64,000 nucleotides of DNA, from contig NZ_RKHO01000001.1 of the NCBI RefSeq assembly GCF_003752505.1, positions 1,488,001 through 1,552,000 of the forward strand, written 5' to 3'. Positions 19,883 through 49,794 of the stretch are shown one piece after another; position 1 is the stretch's first letter, and each line of letters opens with the position of its first letter. The position numbers and the translations under genes are program-made. The notes under the pieces were generated by a model that was given only the letters and a program-made list of their open reading frames with translations, had not been told where the DNA came from and made no database searches. The DNA comes from Nocardioides aurantiacus. GTDB lineage: Bacteria; Actinomycetota; Actinomycetes; Propionibacteriales; Nocardioidaceae.

Positions 19883-19904
19883 GTTCCCCGGACGTCCGGG
19901 GAAC
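19883..19904 (+). terminator. Perfect 22-bp palindrome after the flavin reductase gene
   Basis: GTTCCCCGGAC followed by its exact reverse complement, 10 bases after the stop at 19872. It can form an 11-bp stem or act as a symmetric protein site. There is no T-run, so termination would be of the hairpin-only kind; an operator role for the following gene is equally possible. Confidence 0.45.
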
Positions 19905-20094: not shown

Positions 20095-21051
20095 GTGGAC
20101 CCGCACCCCGATCGCCGCCCGGCGGCGGCCCCTCGTGACCAGCCGCTCGACCTACCCGCCGTGCCCAGCACGCTGCCGCTCGACCGTCCGTTCACCCGCG
20201 AGGCGGCGCGCCAGGCCGGGGTGGAGCGACGTGCCCTCGAGCGGCTGCTGAAGCGCGGCGAGCTGGTCCGGCTGGTCCGTGGGGTGTACGCCGCAGCCGC
20301 GCTCGTCGACGTGCCCGCGGTCCGTGTCGCGGCCGTCGCGCTGGCAGCGGGCGAGGCGCGCGACGACGTGCTCGTGGTCGACCGGACGGCGGCCTGGCTG
20401 CACGGGGTGGACGTTGCCGGGTGGGAGCAGGGTCCGGTGCCGCTGGACCTGCGCCGCCGTACGCCGACCCCCGGCGCCCGCCACCGCAGCGCACCGGCGT
20501 GGGAGGACCGCGACCTGGTGCGCCTCGGGCCGCTGGTAGTCACCTCGCCGCTGCGCACCGCCGTCGACCTCGGGCGGGGCGGGCCGGAGGCGTTCGCAGC
20601 GGTGGTGATGGACCGGCTGCTGCGCACCGGGGGCCTGCGGCACACCGAGCTGCTGGCCGAGCTGGCCCGCTGGTCGGGACGGACCGGGGCGGTCCGGCTG
20701 CGCGAGCTGGCCGCGGCGGCCGACGGGCGGGCGGTGACGGCGGGGGAGTCGGTGCTGCGGCTCGGCTGGCACCGAGCCGCGCTGCCGACGCCCACGCCGG
20801 GGCTCCTCGTCCGAGCGGGCGACCGGTTGGTCCGGCTGGCGCTCGGCCTGGCCGACCGCCAGTTCGGGGCCGTGCTGTCGGGCCAGCTCGACCGGGCCGA
20901 GGTCGCCACCGACGACCTGGCCCGGCTCACCGACGCGGGCTGGCGGGTGGTGCTGCTCCGCGAGGACCGGGTGCTGCGCGAGGACCCGTCGCTGTGGGGC
21001 GCCCACCTGGTGCGGGAGTTCCACCAGCAGCTGCTGGCCCAGGTGGGCTGA
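20095..21051 (+). CDS. AbiEi-like HTH protein with degenerate nuclease-like C-terminus
   Basis: 318 residues from the GTG at 20095. The N-terminal winged-HTH is FTREAARQAGVERRALERLL then VRLVRGVYAAA, the AbiEi-antitoxin-type region; VDRTAAWLHGVDV and TSPLRTAVDLGR follow. The C-terminal part aligns with the DUF559/Vsr-like nuclease part of the copy at 47061 (shared GESxLRLxW), but the acidic active-site pattern is missing: RLALGLADRQFGAVLSGQ stands where the other has D...EYDGEEFH. No AbiEii toxin gene is adjacent. An open frame reaches back to 19912, but that part is Arg-rich and unlike the family, so it was not used. Confidence 0.72.
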   Translation: MDPHPDRRPAAAPRDQPLDLPAVPSTLPLDRPFTREAARQAGVERRALERLLKRGELVRLVRGVYAAAALVDVPAVRVAAVALAAGEARDDVLVVDRTAAWLHGVDVAGWEQGPVPLDLRRRTPTPGARHRSAPAWEDRDLVRLGPLVVTSPLRTAVDLGRGGPEAFAAVVMDRLLRTGGLRHTELLAELARWSGRTGAVRLRELAAAADGRAVTAGESVLRLGWHRAALPTPTPGLLVRAGDRLVRLALGLADRQFGAVLSGQLDRAEVATDDLARLTDAGWRVVLLREDRVLREDPSLWGAHLVREFHQQLLAQVG

Positions 21052-46270: not shown

Positions 46271-46507
46271 GTGGTTATCGTCTTCGAGGTCTTGCTCGTC
46301 ATCACGAGCCTGCTCCTGATCCTGCTCGTCCTCCTCCACAAGGGGCGCGGCGGCGGGATGTCGGACATGTTCGGTGGTGGCATGTCGAGTGGCCTGGGTG
46401 GCTCCTCGGTCGCCGAGCGCAACCTCGACCGGATCACCATCGGCCTGCTGCTGGTGTGGTTCGCGTGCGTGGTCGGGCTCGGGCTGCTGCTCAAGACCAG
46501 CAACTGA
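46271..46507 (+). CDS. secG: Preprotein translocase subunit SecG
   Basis: 78 residues with the two-helix SecG layout: helix 1 IVFEVLLVITSLLLILLVLL, then the cytoplasmic loop HKGRGGGMSDMFGGG with GLGGSSVAERNLDR, then helix 2 ITIGLLLVWFACVVGLGLLL. It joins SecYE at the membrane. The GTG at 46271 follows a leaderless-type box. secG after tpiA is the normal actinobacterial position. Confidence 0.95.
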   Translation: MVIVFEVLLVITSLLLILLVLLHKGRGGGMSDMFGGGMSSGLGGSSVAERNLDRITIGLLLVWFACVVGLGLLLKTSN

Positions 46508-46532
46508 CCAACCTCGGACGAAGGAGACCAGC

Positions 46533-46892
46533 GTGGCAGGCGGAGGAAGTGCGATCCGGGGCAGCCGTATCGGCGCCGGTCCCATGGGTGAGGCGGAGCG
46601 CGGCGAGGCCGCCCCGCGGCAGAGCATCACCTACTTCTGCTCCCACGAGCACCGGACCCTGATCGCGTTCGCGATCGAGGCCGTCGTCCCGGAGTCCTGG
46701 GACTGCCCGCGCTGCGGCCTCCCGGCGAGCATGGACTCCGACAACCCGCCCCCGGCGCCCAAGATCGAGCCCTACAAGACGCACCTCGCCTACGTGAAGG
46801 AGCGCCGCTCCGACGCCGAGGCCAAGGACATCCTCAACGAGGCCCTGTCCACGCTGCGCCAGCGCCGCAAGTCCGGCGACCTGATCTTCTAG
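46533..46892 (+). CDS. rbpA: RNA polymerase-binding protein RbpA
   Basis: 119 residues. RbpA binds RNA polymerase and the principal sigma factor and stabilises the open complex; found in actinobacteria only. The N-terminal tail (SAIRGSRIGAGPMGEAERGE) and core (ITYFCSHEHRTLIAFAIEA, WDCPRCGLPA with the Cys residues) are typical, followed by the basic linker and the sigma-interaction helix KDILNEALSTLRQRRKSG. GTG with AAGGAG upstream. A 32-bp repeat array begins at the base after its stop. Confidence 0.95.
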   Translation: MAGGGSAIRGSRIGAGPMGEAERGEAAPRQSITYFCSHEHRTLIAFAIEAVVPESWDCPRCGLPASMDSDNPPPAPKIEPYKTHLAYVKERRSDAEAKDILNEALSTLRQRRKSGDLIF

Positions 46893-47013
46893 CCGACCGG
46901 GCACTTCTGGTCGGTCAGAGGCCGCCGACCGGGCAGTTGTGCTGAGGCCAGGCCCGCCCACCGGGCAGTTGGGCTGAAGCCAGGCCCGCCCACCGGGCAG
47001 TTCTGCCGGGGCC
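46893..47013 (+). repeat. Left array: four tandem 32-bp repeats
   Basis: Units start at 46893, 46925, 46957 and 46989 with an exact 32-base period; the last is cut short. The shared core is CC(G/C)ACCGGGCAGTT, followed in units 2 and 3 by gtgctg/gggctg and GGCCCG-type ends, so each unit has a short inverted CGGGC...GCCCG pair. Unit 1 has CACTTCTG where others have CAGTT. It starts right after the rbpA stop. A mirror-image array lies at 48045-48163. Confidence 0.9.
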
Positions 47014-47060
47014 TGTGGACGGCGCGAGCGCGCCGCGCAGGTCCTTGCCATCCTGCGCTG

Positions 47061-48035
47061 ATGCGCAGCGACTGGTGGGACGACGAGCGACGCTTCCTGG
47101 GCGCGGCCTTCCCGCTGCCCCTGGACCAGCCCTTCAGCGCGGTGGACGCGGCTCGCTGCGGTGTCTCCCGCTACGCGCTCCAGCGGCTCGTGGCGACGGG
47201 GCTGGTCCGCCGGCTCCTCCGCGGGGTGTACGCCGCCGCGCAGGCGCCCGACGACCTGCTGCTCCGCGCGACCGCGCTCGGGCTGGTCCTCCCGCCGGCC
47301 GAGGTGGTCTGCGGCAGGACCGCGGCGTGGCTGCACGGCGTCGACGTGCTGCCGCGGACGGCGCTGCGGACACCGCCGCCGCTCGAGGTCGTCGACACCG
47401 GCGACAACCACGTGCGCCGGCCGGGCGTCGACGGCCGCCGCAGGATGCTGCTGAGGCGTGATGTCGAGGTCGTCCACGGCGTCCGGGTGACGACGGCCCA
47501 CCGCACGGCGCTCGACCTCGGCCGGCTGCTGTGGCGGTACGACGCCCTGGCCGCGCTCGACGGGTTCGTGCGGGCCGGCGTACTGCGGGAAGGCCTGCTG
47601 GACGACCTCGACCGGTTCCGCGGGTTCCGCGGCGTCCGGCAGCTCCGAGCCCTCGCGCCGCTCGCCGACGGCCGGGCGCAGTCGCCGGGGGAGTCGGCAC
47701 TCCGGCTCTGGTGGTAGGACGCGCTGCTGCCGACGCCCGAGCCGCAGGTGCTGGTCGAGACGGACGCGTCGTACGTCCTGGTCGACATCAGCGACCCGGT
47801 CTGCCGGTTCGGGGCGGAGTACGACGGCGAGGAGTTCCACACCTCGCCCGAGGACAGGGCGCACGACGCGGCGCGGCGCTCCTGGCTCGTCGAGGAGCGC
47901 GACTGGACGATCGAGGTGTTCACCAAGCACGACGTCTACGACCCAGGTGCCGATCCGGTCGCGCGACTGCAGGAGGGTCACGAGCGCGCCCGTCGTACGC
48001 ACCGTCGGTGGTCTCCGGGGCGCCGCTCCGCGTGA
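47061..48035 (+). pseudogene. AbiEi-like HTH / DUF559 (Vsr-like) nuclease gene, broken by an amber codon
   Basis: One frame from the ATG at 47061 to 48035 holds an AbiEi-like protein, interrupted by a single TAG at 47715-47717. Before it: VDAARCGVSRYALQRLV and LLRGVYAAAQ (winged HTH), RTAAWLHGVDV, TTAHRTALDLGR and SPGESALRLWW. After it, in the same frame: LLPTPEPQVLVETDASYVL, VDISDPVCRFGAEYDGEEFH with the acidic nuclease pattern, and a normal C-terminus. A full-length version would have 324 residues, close to the paralogue at 20095-21051. Either a one-base nonsense mutation (Tyr or similar codon) or a sequencing error. Both ends lie between inverted repeat arrays. No toxin gene is adjacent. 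Confidence 0.82.
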
Positions 48036-48044
48036 CCGCACCGA

Positions 48045-48163
48045 CAGAACTGCCCGCTCGGCGGCACCGGGCCCAGCAGAACTGCCCGCTCGGCGTCTCC
48101 GGGCCCAGCAGAACTGCCCGGTCGGCGGTCCCGGGCCCAGCAGAAGTGCCCGCCCGGTGCAGG
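48045..48163 (-). repeat. Right array: four tandem 32-bp repeats, inverted relative to the left array
   Basis: On the plus strand units start at 48045, 48077, 48109 and 48141, again with an exact 32-base period; each begins CAGAACTGCCCG and ends CGGGCCCAG, i.e. the reverse complement of the left-array core. The outermost unit (48141) reads CAGAAGTG, which is the complement of the CACTTCTG variant in the outermost left unit. GCCCGG...CCGGGC pairs allow a small hairpin in each unit. It ends 10 bases before the pgl stop. Confidence 0.9.
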
Positions 48164-48172
48164 TGCCTCTCG

Positions 48173-48892
48173 CTACAGCTTGCTCGCGGCGGCCTCGTCG
48201 AGCCACCAGGTGCGGTCGGGGGCGGTGATGCCGCGGGCGGGGGTGTCGTGGACGGAGCCCACGTCGGCCAGGGCGCGGGCGACGGCGTCGGCCTTCCCGT
48301 CCCCGCTGACCAGGAACCACACCGCGCGGGTGCGGTTGAGGGCGGCGAAGGTGAGGGTGATCCGCTCCGGCGGGGGCTTGGGGGAGTCGGTGACGCCCAG
48401 CGCGATCGCGTCGTCGACGTCGAGCTGGGGGTGGTCGGGGAACAGGGAGGCGACGTGGCCGTCGGGGCCCAGTCCGAGCAGCACCAGGTCGAAGGCCCCA
48501 CCGCCCGAGGACCGCACCGCCTCGCCGTAGGCATCCGCCGCCGCGTGCACGTCGGCATGCGACTCGTCGGCGGCCGGCATCGCGTGCACGCGCAGGGCGT
48601 CGACGCCGACGACGTCGAGCAGGTCCCGCCCGACGCCACGGTCGTTGCGGTCGGAGGAGTCGGCGGCGACGTAGCGCTCGTCTCCCCACCAGAAGTCGAC
48701 CTGCGTCCAGTCGACGGCCGAGGAGTCGAGCGCCGCCACCGCGCGGTAGATCTCGTCGGCGATGGTGCCGCCGGTGAGCGCGACCGAGGGCACCCGGCCC
48801 TCGGCCTGCACCTCGGCCAGCCGGGCGACGAACGCCTCGGCGACGGCCGAGACCAGTCCGGCGGCGTCGGGGTAGCGCTTCAGGTCGGTCAT
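48173..48892 (-). CDS. pgl: 6-phosphogluconolactonase
   Basis: Hydrolyses 6-phosphogluconolactone. 239 residues of the DevB/SOL type. SVALTGGTIADEIYRAVAAL, then VDFWWGDERYV, AFDLVLLGLGPDGHVASLFPDHP and the C-terminal RGITAPDRTWWLDEAAA match the family. ATG overlaps the opcA stop (ATGA); last gene of the tkt-to-pgl block. Confidence 0.95.
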   Translation of the reverse strand: MTDLKRYPDAAGLVSAVAEAFVARLAEVQAEGRVPSVALTGGTIADEIYRAVAALDSSAVDWTQVDFWWGDERYVAADSSDRNDRGVGRDLLDVVGVDALRVHAMPAADESHADVHAAADAYGEAVRSSGGGAFDLVLLGLGPDGHVASLFPDHPQLDVDDAIALGVTDSPKPPPERITLTFAALNRTRAVWFLVSGDGKADAVARALADVGSVHDTPARGITAPDRTWWLDEAAASKL

Positions 48893-49794
48893 CGGGGCTC
48901 CTTCGTCAGGTGCCGCGCCACGGCGGCGTAGGTGTCGTCCTCGTCGAGCCGTCGCAGCTCCTCGGCCAGCAGCTCGGGGACCGTACGACGCTTCAGCGCG
49001 ACCGGGCGGTCGGGCTGGCCAGGGGAGCGGAAGCTGGCCAGCAGCCCGTCGGGCCGGGCGATGCTGACCTCGCCCTCGGCGGTCGTCATGGTGACCTCGG
49101 TCAGTCCGGGGCCCGACGAGGTGTGCCGGGTCACCTCGACGCGCAGGCACAGCGAGAGCCAGGCGACCAGCAGGTCGGCGCTGGGGCTGACCTTCTCGGC
49201 GCTGACGGAGGCGGCGGTGACCTTGGCCGGGTGCTGGTCGAGCGCGGCGGCGAGCAGCGCCCGCCAGGGCGTCAGACGGGTCCAGGCGAGGTCGGTGTTG
49301 CCCTTGGCGTACGCCGCGGCCTGGCGACCGATGGCCCTGGTGCGGGCCGTGGTGGCACCGGCAGCGTCGGTGATCCGGCGCTGGGCCAGCCCGCCGAGCG
49401 GGTCGGCGGCCGGGTCGTGGGGGGCGTCGACCGGCCACCAGACGGCCACGGGGGAGTCGGGGAGCAGCAGCGGCAGCACCACCGACTCGGGGTGCTTGGT
49501 CACCTCGCCGTGGAGCCGGATCAGGGCGGCCTCGCCGCTCCAGCCGGCGCCGGTGCCGACCTGGGCGTCGACCCGACCGTGGCCGCGGCCGTCGCCGAGG
49601 ATGACGCCCAGGACCCGGGCGGGGTGCTCGTGGGAGGCCTCGCGCGCGCACTCCATCGCCTGCGTGGCGTGGTCCTCGTCGACCACCACGACGAGCGTCA
49701 TCACCATGCCCATCGCGGGCGACCCGGCACTGGTCCGGGCCTCGACGAGCGCGGCGGCGATGCCGGCGGAGCTGGTCTCGGTGAGCTCTCTCAC
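48889..49794 (-). CDS. opcA: Glucose-6-phosphate dehydrogenase assembly protein OpcA
   Basis: 301 residues. OpcA is needed for assembly and redox-controlled activity of Zwf in cyanobacteria and found beside zwf in actinobacteria. RTSAGSPAMGMVMTLVVVVD opens the domain, VLPLLLPDSPVAVWWPVDAPHDPAADPLG is the centre, and RAIGRQAAAYAKGNTDLAWTRLTPWRALLAAALD follows. GTG overlaps the zwf stop by four bases. Confidence 0.94.
   Translation of the reverse strand: MRELTETSSAGIAAALVEARTSAGSPAMGMVMTLVVVVDEDHATQAMECAREASHEHPARVLGVILGDGRGHGRVDAQVGTGAGWSGEAALIRLHGEVTKHPESVVLPLLLPDSPVAVWWPVDAPHDPAADPLGGLAQRRITDAAGATTARTRAIGRQAAAYAKGNTDLAWTRLTPWRALLAAALDQHPAKVTAASVSAEKVSPSADLLVAWLSLCLRVEVTRHTSSGPGLTEVTMTTAEGEVSIARPDGLLASFRSPGQPDRPVALKRRTVPELLAEELRRLDEDDTYAAVARHLTKEPR

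Follow-up and report, generated by a model that had tools for sequence, protein, structure and literature searches.

A 64,000-bp stretch of the genome of the soil bacterium Nocardioides aurantiacus (hereafter the window; NCBI RefSeq assembly GCF_003752505.1, contig NZ_RKHO01000001.1, positions 1,488,001 to 1,552,000) carried, between the genes rbpA and pgl, a gene with an AbiEi-type part and a nuclease-like part, enclosed by two facing arrays of a 32-bp repeat (Table 1). Paired arrays of the same unit were dispersed over the rest of the genome, and relatives of the gene in other species and genera were mostly enclosed by inverted repeats as well. The locus probably represents a nuclease-repeat system with cognate dispersed paired arrays, laid out like RAYT/REPIN systems and built on an unrelated protein. 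The names rbpA and pgl are those presumed by an earlier sequence-only reading of the window and by ourselves.

Both arrays had a period of 32 bp and comprised four units each, as the sequence-only reading had described; each unit had a core of 20 bp. Their tight fit between the two neighbouring genes was also borne out, since the first unit lay at the rbpA stop codon and the right array stopped 13 bp short of the pgl stop codon (48173-48175). Matched without gaps and in inverted orientation, the 900-bp flanks of the frame 47061-47717 gave a best score of 47.5, while 200 random intervals drawn from the window, avoiding 46-49 kb, scored at most 18.5, which ruled out chance as the source of the facing arrays. 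A known RNA family was rejected, as Rfam gave no match up to an E-value of 1 within 46500-48600. A long hairpin was predicted for one gene-less array pair (z -5.1) and was given no weight, because any inverted arrays would yield one. The outermost unit was the same on both sides (CACTTCTG), as had been claimed, but the C at position 14 that distinguishes this variant was frequent, occurring in 26 of the 92 units of the genome. The AbiEi/nuclease-like gene proposed from the sequence was recovered in its domains by Pfam and, in an intact relative, by fold, but not as an intact frame: an in-frame TAG (47715-47717) splits the AbiEi part (47061-47714) from the nuclease part (to 48035), and within the latter a GTG at 47748 opens a frame downstream of the stop.

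Table 1. Features of the rbpA-pgl region, in positions of the window.
Feature	Position	Strand	Remark
rbpA, left neighbour	46533..46892	+	Stop codon 46890-46892 touches the first repeat unit
Left array, 4 units of 32 bp	Cores 46891-46910, 46923-46942, 46955-46974, 46987-47006	+	
CTGTGG motif, gap between array and gene	47013..47018	+	Read by eye
AbiEi-type winged-helix part of nuclease gene	47061..47717	+	PF13338 (AbiEi_4), E 5.9e-9; stop checked
Nuclease part (MTES_1575/Vsr-like), same frame, 3' of the stop	47718..48035	+	PF18741, E 4.7e-4 (curated cut-off not reached); fold taken from L052, an intact relative
Right array, 4 units of 32 bp	Cores 48044-48063, 48076-48095, 48108-48127, 48140-48159	-	
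pgl, right neighbour, 3' end facing the array	48173..48895	-	tblastn match in 72 of 80 fetched loci

The left array matched 29 places in the N. aurantiacus genome (one contig, 4.06 Mb) at an E-value of 0.001 or below. Thirteen stretches were fetched, one of which (L020) held no array; the other 12 and the window made up 13 sites. The genome thus contained at least 13 sites, together comprising 26 arrays and 92 units, and at every site forward units were followed by reverse units. The arrays were hence not private to the nuclease gene, since 12 further sites carry them. The sequence-only reading had counted a genome-wide, unpaired scatter of the unit as evidence against its interpretation; the unit was indeed dispersed, yet all 13 sites were paired in the same facing orientation.

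Each unit consisted of a 20-bp core (CGCCGASCGGGCASTTSTGC) and a 12-bp spacer. Over the 92 units, core identity was 88.9% within arrays and 84.5% between arrays, while spacer identity was 57% within arrays, 36.5% between arrays and 36.3% for the two arrays of one site. Only the core is therefore held in common between arrays, and the identities indicate that arrays grow locally in tandem, that the core is kept genome-wide and that the members of a pair are not mutual copies. Inverted duplication of one array, proposed earlier for the two arrays of the window, was rejected on these spacer values. As spacers do not travel with cores, change under recognition in trans, combined with unequal crossing-over within arrays, appeared the likeliest route by which units turn over. 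Facing cores were at most 67 bp apart at 7 of the 13 sites; the longer gaps were those of the window, L010, L011, L012, L016 and L019, and OsmC-like, dehydrogenase-like and SGNH-like genes stood between the arrays at L011, L016 and L019, respectively.

The association of the gene with inverted repeats was followed through the rbpA-pgl site in relatives. The RbpA protein, matched in 24 of 24 congeners, served as query, and the best 80 of 291 loci, nearly all from Nocardioides and Marmoricola, were compared. A pgl match was absent at eight of them, at some through a contig end. The nuclease gene was present at 34 loci, on the forward strand at 20 and on the reverse strand at 14. Among 34 examined frames (33 gene-bearing rbpA loci and L024), 32 were open over 308-348 amino acids. 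In the 32 loci whose flanks were printed (excluding L115, L122 and L024), left and right arrays shared one unit per locus, and the unit differed between species. Inverted flank matches, scored as above, reached at least 23.5, a cut-off chosen after the scores were seen, in 26 of 32 gene-bearing loci. The other six (L097, L101, L102, L104, L114 and L126) had short or diverged arrays when read by eye. As high a score was reached by no random interval (n=200) and by three open reading frames (ORFs) among 116: the gene of the window and, in congeners G003 and G009, the dehydrogenase gene between arrays. A clear period was found in 51 flanks of 31 loci and was 32 bp in 31 flanks and 31 bp in 14, with periods of 14, 22, 30, 34, 36 and 44 bp in one flank each. 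Spacing was thus conserved while sequence was not, as would be expected if proteins bound along a single side of the helix.

Elsewhere in the N. aurantiacus genome the pattern recurred with other repeats. Seven members of the protein family were found at an E-value of 0.001 or below, and five of the six paralogues were bordered on each side by repeats, inverted or palindromic, that bear no relation to the 32-bp unit. The remaining one, within the window (20095-21051, forward strand; 44% identity over the AbiEi part), had a half-repeat on its upstream side only, where the palindrome CCCCGGACGTCCGGGG (19886-19901) and the stretch following it resembled the repeat ends of the L135 paralogue. A perfect 32-bp palindrome (GGCAGTTTCACCGGC..GCCGGTGAAACTGCC) occurred at 22 places (G000:C1:3693520, 3945712, 252695 and 19 more); two nuclease paralogues had it at their ends, which accounts for four of the places. 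A second type (GCATGTAANNCGGGGTTANNG; GCATGTAANNCGGGGTTA repeats) also occurred at 22 places with at most one mismatch (e.g., G000:C1:404386, 3408729, 3624722); four were the ends of two other paralogues, and 12 of the 18 remaining copies formed six facing pairs. Reversed-pattern controls gave no match for either type. In other genera and families, members were present in 20 of 23 genomes at an E-value of 1e-10 or below (103 matches), and at 22 of the 30 loci kept for the flank test inverted flanks scored at least 23.5, against at most 17.5 for mismatched pairs (n=30). Some of these matches were C-rich or palindromic (e.g., L158, L181, L168). An association of inverted flanks with the gene family was thus supported both at the rbpA-pgl site and outside it.

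These surveys bear on the idea that the gene merely landed between arrays of an unrelated host factor, its association with them being a by-product of a tolerant intergenic site. Genes of other kinds between arrays speak for it, the L016 dehydrogenase standing between arrays in G003 and G009 too, as do other repeats in gene-less rbpA-pgl gaps: those of L082, L083, L088, L099, L105 and L109, all from other Nocardioides, contained different repeat families, and the gap seems to collect repeats. This explanation was nevertheless considered improbable and largely refuted by the flank surveys, since inverted flanks were far more frequent around the gene and its homologues than around control ORFs and paralogues in the same genome bear different repeats of their own.

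At the rbpA-pgl site, distances between nuclease proteins tracked those of Pgl within the forward-strand group (r 0.88, 16 loci) and the reverse-strand group (r 0.82, 13 loci), and much less so overall (r 0.35). Nuclease proteins of the two groups were 39% identical, while Pgl was about equally close between and within groups. By parsimony on one quick tree of 72 loci (the other eight lacking a pgl match), presence of the gene changed at least 16 times and its orientation at least six times, counts that are minima and had no shuffled control. Distances and tree together indicate that the gap was occupied by two lineages, each in its own orientation, and that the gene was often gained or lost. 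The inserted or mobile unit suspected from the sequence is supported in that gene and paired arrays form a unit which some relatives have between rbpA and pgl and others lack, but a simple fresh insert is not supported, given the correlation with Pgl.

Units were largely specific to their species when searched with strict patterns. The unit at the gene flanks of N. pini (L093), L100 and L116 was found 46, 14 and 29 times in these three genomes and a single time in the remaining 23 of 26 genomes searched. The tandem unit of N. gansuensis (L073) had 43 copies at home, one in the genome of L092, whose flanks carry a similar unit, and none in 21 others; this strict pattern also found no match in several genomes with a similar flank unit (e.g., L102, L126). 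The unit of G003 was present in 19 copies there and absent from 23 congeners. For the window unit, a strict 18-mer was found in 5 of 58 genomes, with 43 of 51 copies in N. aurantiacus, and a looser tandem pattern in 4 of 24 congeners, with 43 matches in N. aurantiacus and 14 in G006. Eight dispersed places in three relatives, picked since their matches hinted at pairs, all showed facing units, and no relative of the nuclease gene was found at any of the eight. Together, these distributions suggest that the nuclease and its presumed target repeats evolve together.

Sites proved more stable than units when orthologous array sites were located through their flanking proteins. (Neighbour names such as glyA, relA and ctfB follow our own reading of translations rather than a tool.) Paired arrays were present in G003 at all five compared sites (glyA, relA, pac2, ctfB-dehydrogenase-LLM and ldt-qcrB). 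In G009, four sites were found: glyA had one unit, pac2 two and the dehydrogenase site three on each side, while the relA site was without an array and kept a remnant, which looks like loss. Arrays shared at orthologous sites with changed units indicate that the sites are old and that units turn over.

The gene is predicted to encode an AbiEi-type winged helix joined to a Vsr-like nuclease. The structure model of the intact relative L052 (mean pLDDT 90) matched in Foldseek first the AbiEi antitoxin 6y8q (E 2.7e-4, the sole match below 0.001) and then the catalytic domain of I-Bth0305I (3r3p; probability 0.99-1.00, with weak E-values of 0.10-0.13 and TM scores by target of 0.62-0.77), with Vsr and TnsA at lower ranks. 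A sequence profile searched against solved structures gave no clear relative, with one match at an E-value of 1.1. Seven residues of the nuclease part (E211, D244, E255, G258, H262, D271 and W283) were invariant in the alignment of 30 of the 32 full-length frames, L093 and L024 being left out. Of these, E211, D244, E255, H262 and D271 are candidates for the catalytic residues of a Vsr-like fold. The homing endonuclease I-Bth0305I resembles Vsr, according to excerpts of PMC11879112, and appeared to share the fold of the present nuclease part; unlike it, the gene studied here lies outside any intron and is joined to an AbiEi part.

In the excerpts of PMC7319586 used here, tandem 23-bp repeats are specific targets of AbiEi proteins, AbiEi attaches to inverted repeats within its own promoter, and neither AbiEi nor Rv2827c binds the repeats of the other; this lack of cross-binding fits species-specific cores. 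The AbiEi domain, together with that autoregulatory binding, also raises the possibility of a type IV toxin-antitoxin locus, with an AbiEi-type antitoxin and its operators. The AbiE systems do share with the present gene the N-terminal AbiEi fold and profile matches and several similar repeats near the gene, but they have a separate toxin, where here the protein bears a C-terminal nuclease domain of its own and repeats lie on both sides and dispersed. No DUF1814 nucleotidyltransferase toxin gene adjoined the locus, the flanking genes being rbpA and pgl instead (neighbours and the remaining genome were not searched with profiles). One array also lies 3' of the gene, and the other sites lie mostly at 3' ends of genes and not at promoters. 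A toxin-antitoxin role was accordingly judged highly unlikely.

The position of the arrays relative to genes gave the strongest competing explanation, a protein-dependent insulator. Neighbours were convergent, with a forward gene ending on the left and a reverse gene on the right, at 11 of the 13 sites, and the right-hand neighbour presented its 3' end at all 13. An AbiEi-type protein bound to host arrays at gene ends would then block read-through, and the gene would be the locus of the regulator itself, its mobility long past or never existing. Conservation of the sites between species agrees with this, as does conservation limited to the core, as in a binding site, and so does the state of the N. 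aurantiacus gene, whose frame stays open through the DNA-binding half only. At L019 and L021, however, the left neighbour presented its 5' end, and by our reading the pairs L188, L189 and L192 in relatives seem to lie at gene starts. An insulator would also leave unexplained a gene family that stands between such repeats across genera, and the conserved nuclease residues. It was therefore considered rather unlikely as the whole explanation, though an old element might now serve for insulation.

Under the favoured reading, a nuclease with its own repeats, the protein would recognise the core, which is some 20 bp long. With cores repeated every 31-32 bp, or three helical turns, bound copies would line up on one face of the DNA, in array pairs placed around the nuclease gene and at other intergenic sites that lack this gene. 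Something acting in trans would keep the core uniform within a genome, the core differing by species, and the best candidate for it is the protein whose own gene bears the same arrays. The likely origin appears to be a selfish element that had non-autonomous copies and the layout of RAYT/REPIN, and cutting in or near the arrays, followed by repair, may have seeded or renewed them. In N. aurantiacus itself, at most the DNA-binding half would act; with the nuclease half cut off by the stop, this copy is a poor one for experiments.

Several observations count against such a system. The gene of N. aurantiacus is interrupted while its arrays persist. Uniformity of the units was imperfect: the exact gene-flank unit of G003 occurred at three of its five compared sites, with variants at relA and ldt, and units in G009 were only loosely alike despite an open gene. 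No array inserted into a clean, empty site was observed among the compared G003 and G009 sites, and there is no support for whole arrays having been copied recently from site to site, as spacers are unshared and the sites old. Finally, 9 of the 30 loci from other genera also scored at least 23.5 in direct orientation, owing to palindromic ends, tandem copies or C-rich stretches.

Inverted ends built from tandem repeats are also known from eukaryotic foldback transposons, whose long ends consist of short repeats in tandem and may or may not enclose a middle part. The ends found here differ in not being inverted copies of each other, and no known enzyme is shared. Among the nearest counterparts are the RAYT (TnpA-REP) genes with their REPIN/BIME repeats, or 'REPtrons'. 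As far as excerpts of PMC8266576 and PMC8049555 describe them, they share with the present locus an enzyme gene with short inverted repeats, dispersed intergenic non-autonomous pairs, lineage-specific repeats and a largely vertical enzyme gene. Their layout, an enzyme gene flanked by repeats that are also dispersed as inverted pairs, was found here as well. However, the RAYT enzyme is an HuH tyrosine transposase, while Pfam and fold matches point here to an AbiEi winged helix and a Vsr-like nuclease. A GTAG precedes the palindrome in RAYT/REPIN, and none was present in the core consensus of the 92 units. The ends found here, unlike those of RAYT/REPIN, consist either of arrayed 31-32 bp units or of long palindromes. 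The locus was not assigned to RAYT/REPIN because its enzyme is unrelated and GTAG is absent.

A more general statement can be made only tentatively, with somewhat less than even confidence: actinobacterial AbiEi/Vsr-like nucleases, each with cognate inverted repeats, may seed and renew non-autonomous intergenic pairs by cutting, as an independent counterpart of RAYT/REPIN with several families per genome and with DNA targets whose specificity changes from one species to the next. No description of such a system was found in the open-access literature. REPINs and RAYT transposases are presented in excerpts of PMC8049555 and PMC8266576 as a standard case of a domesticated enzyme with a population of short repeats. 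If the present reading holds, a second such design exists on an unrelated enzyme, the design arises repeatedly, and a comparison becomes available for the open question of what REPIN-like repeats do for their host. Many actinobacterial genes whose present label is AbiEi antitoxin or endonuclease domain would thereby gain a possible function, and the family would provide a natural series of protein-DNA specificities, the likely target of each protein being legible from the sequence beside its gene.

Two minor features were seen at the array borders. The CTGTGG motif, which we take to resemble a DnaA box, appeared as CTGTGGA(T/C) between array and gene start in the forward-strand lineage and as its reverse complement in the reverse-strand lineage; many relatives, their flanks read by eye, also had CTGTGGA/C or the reverse complement close to the gene's 5' end. 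At several loci (L093, L116, L125 and L010), the stop codon of the neighbouring gene lay inside the first repeat unit, as if arrays had extended into gene ends.
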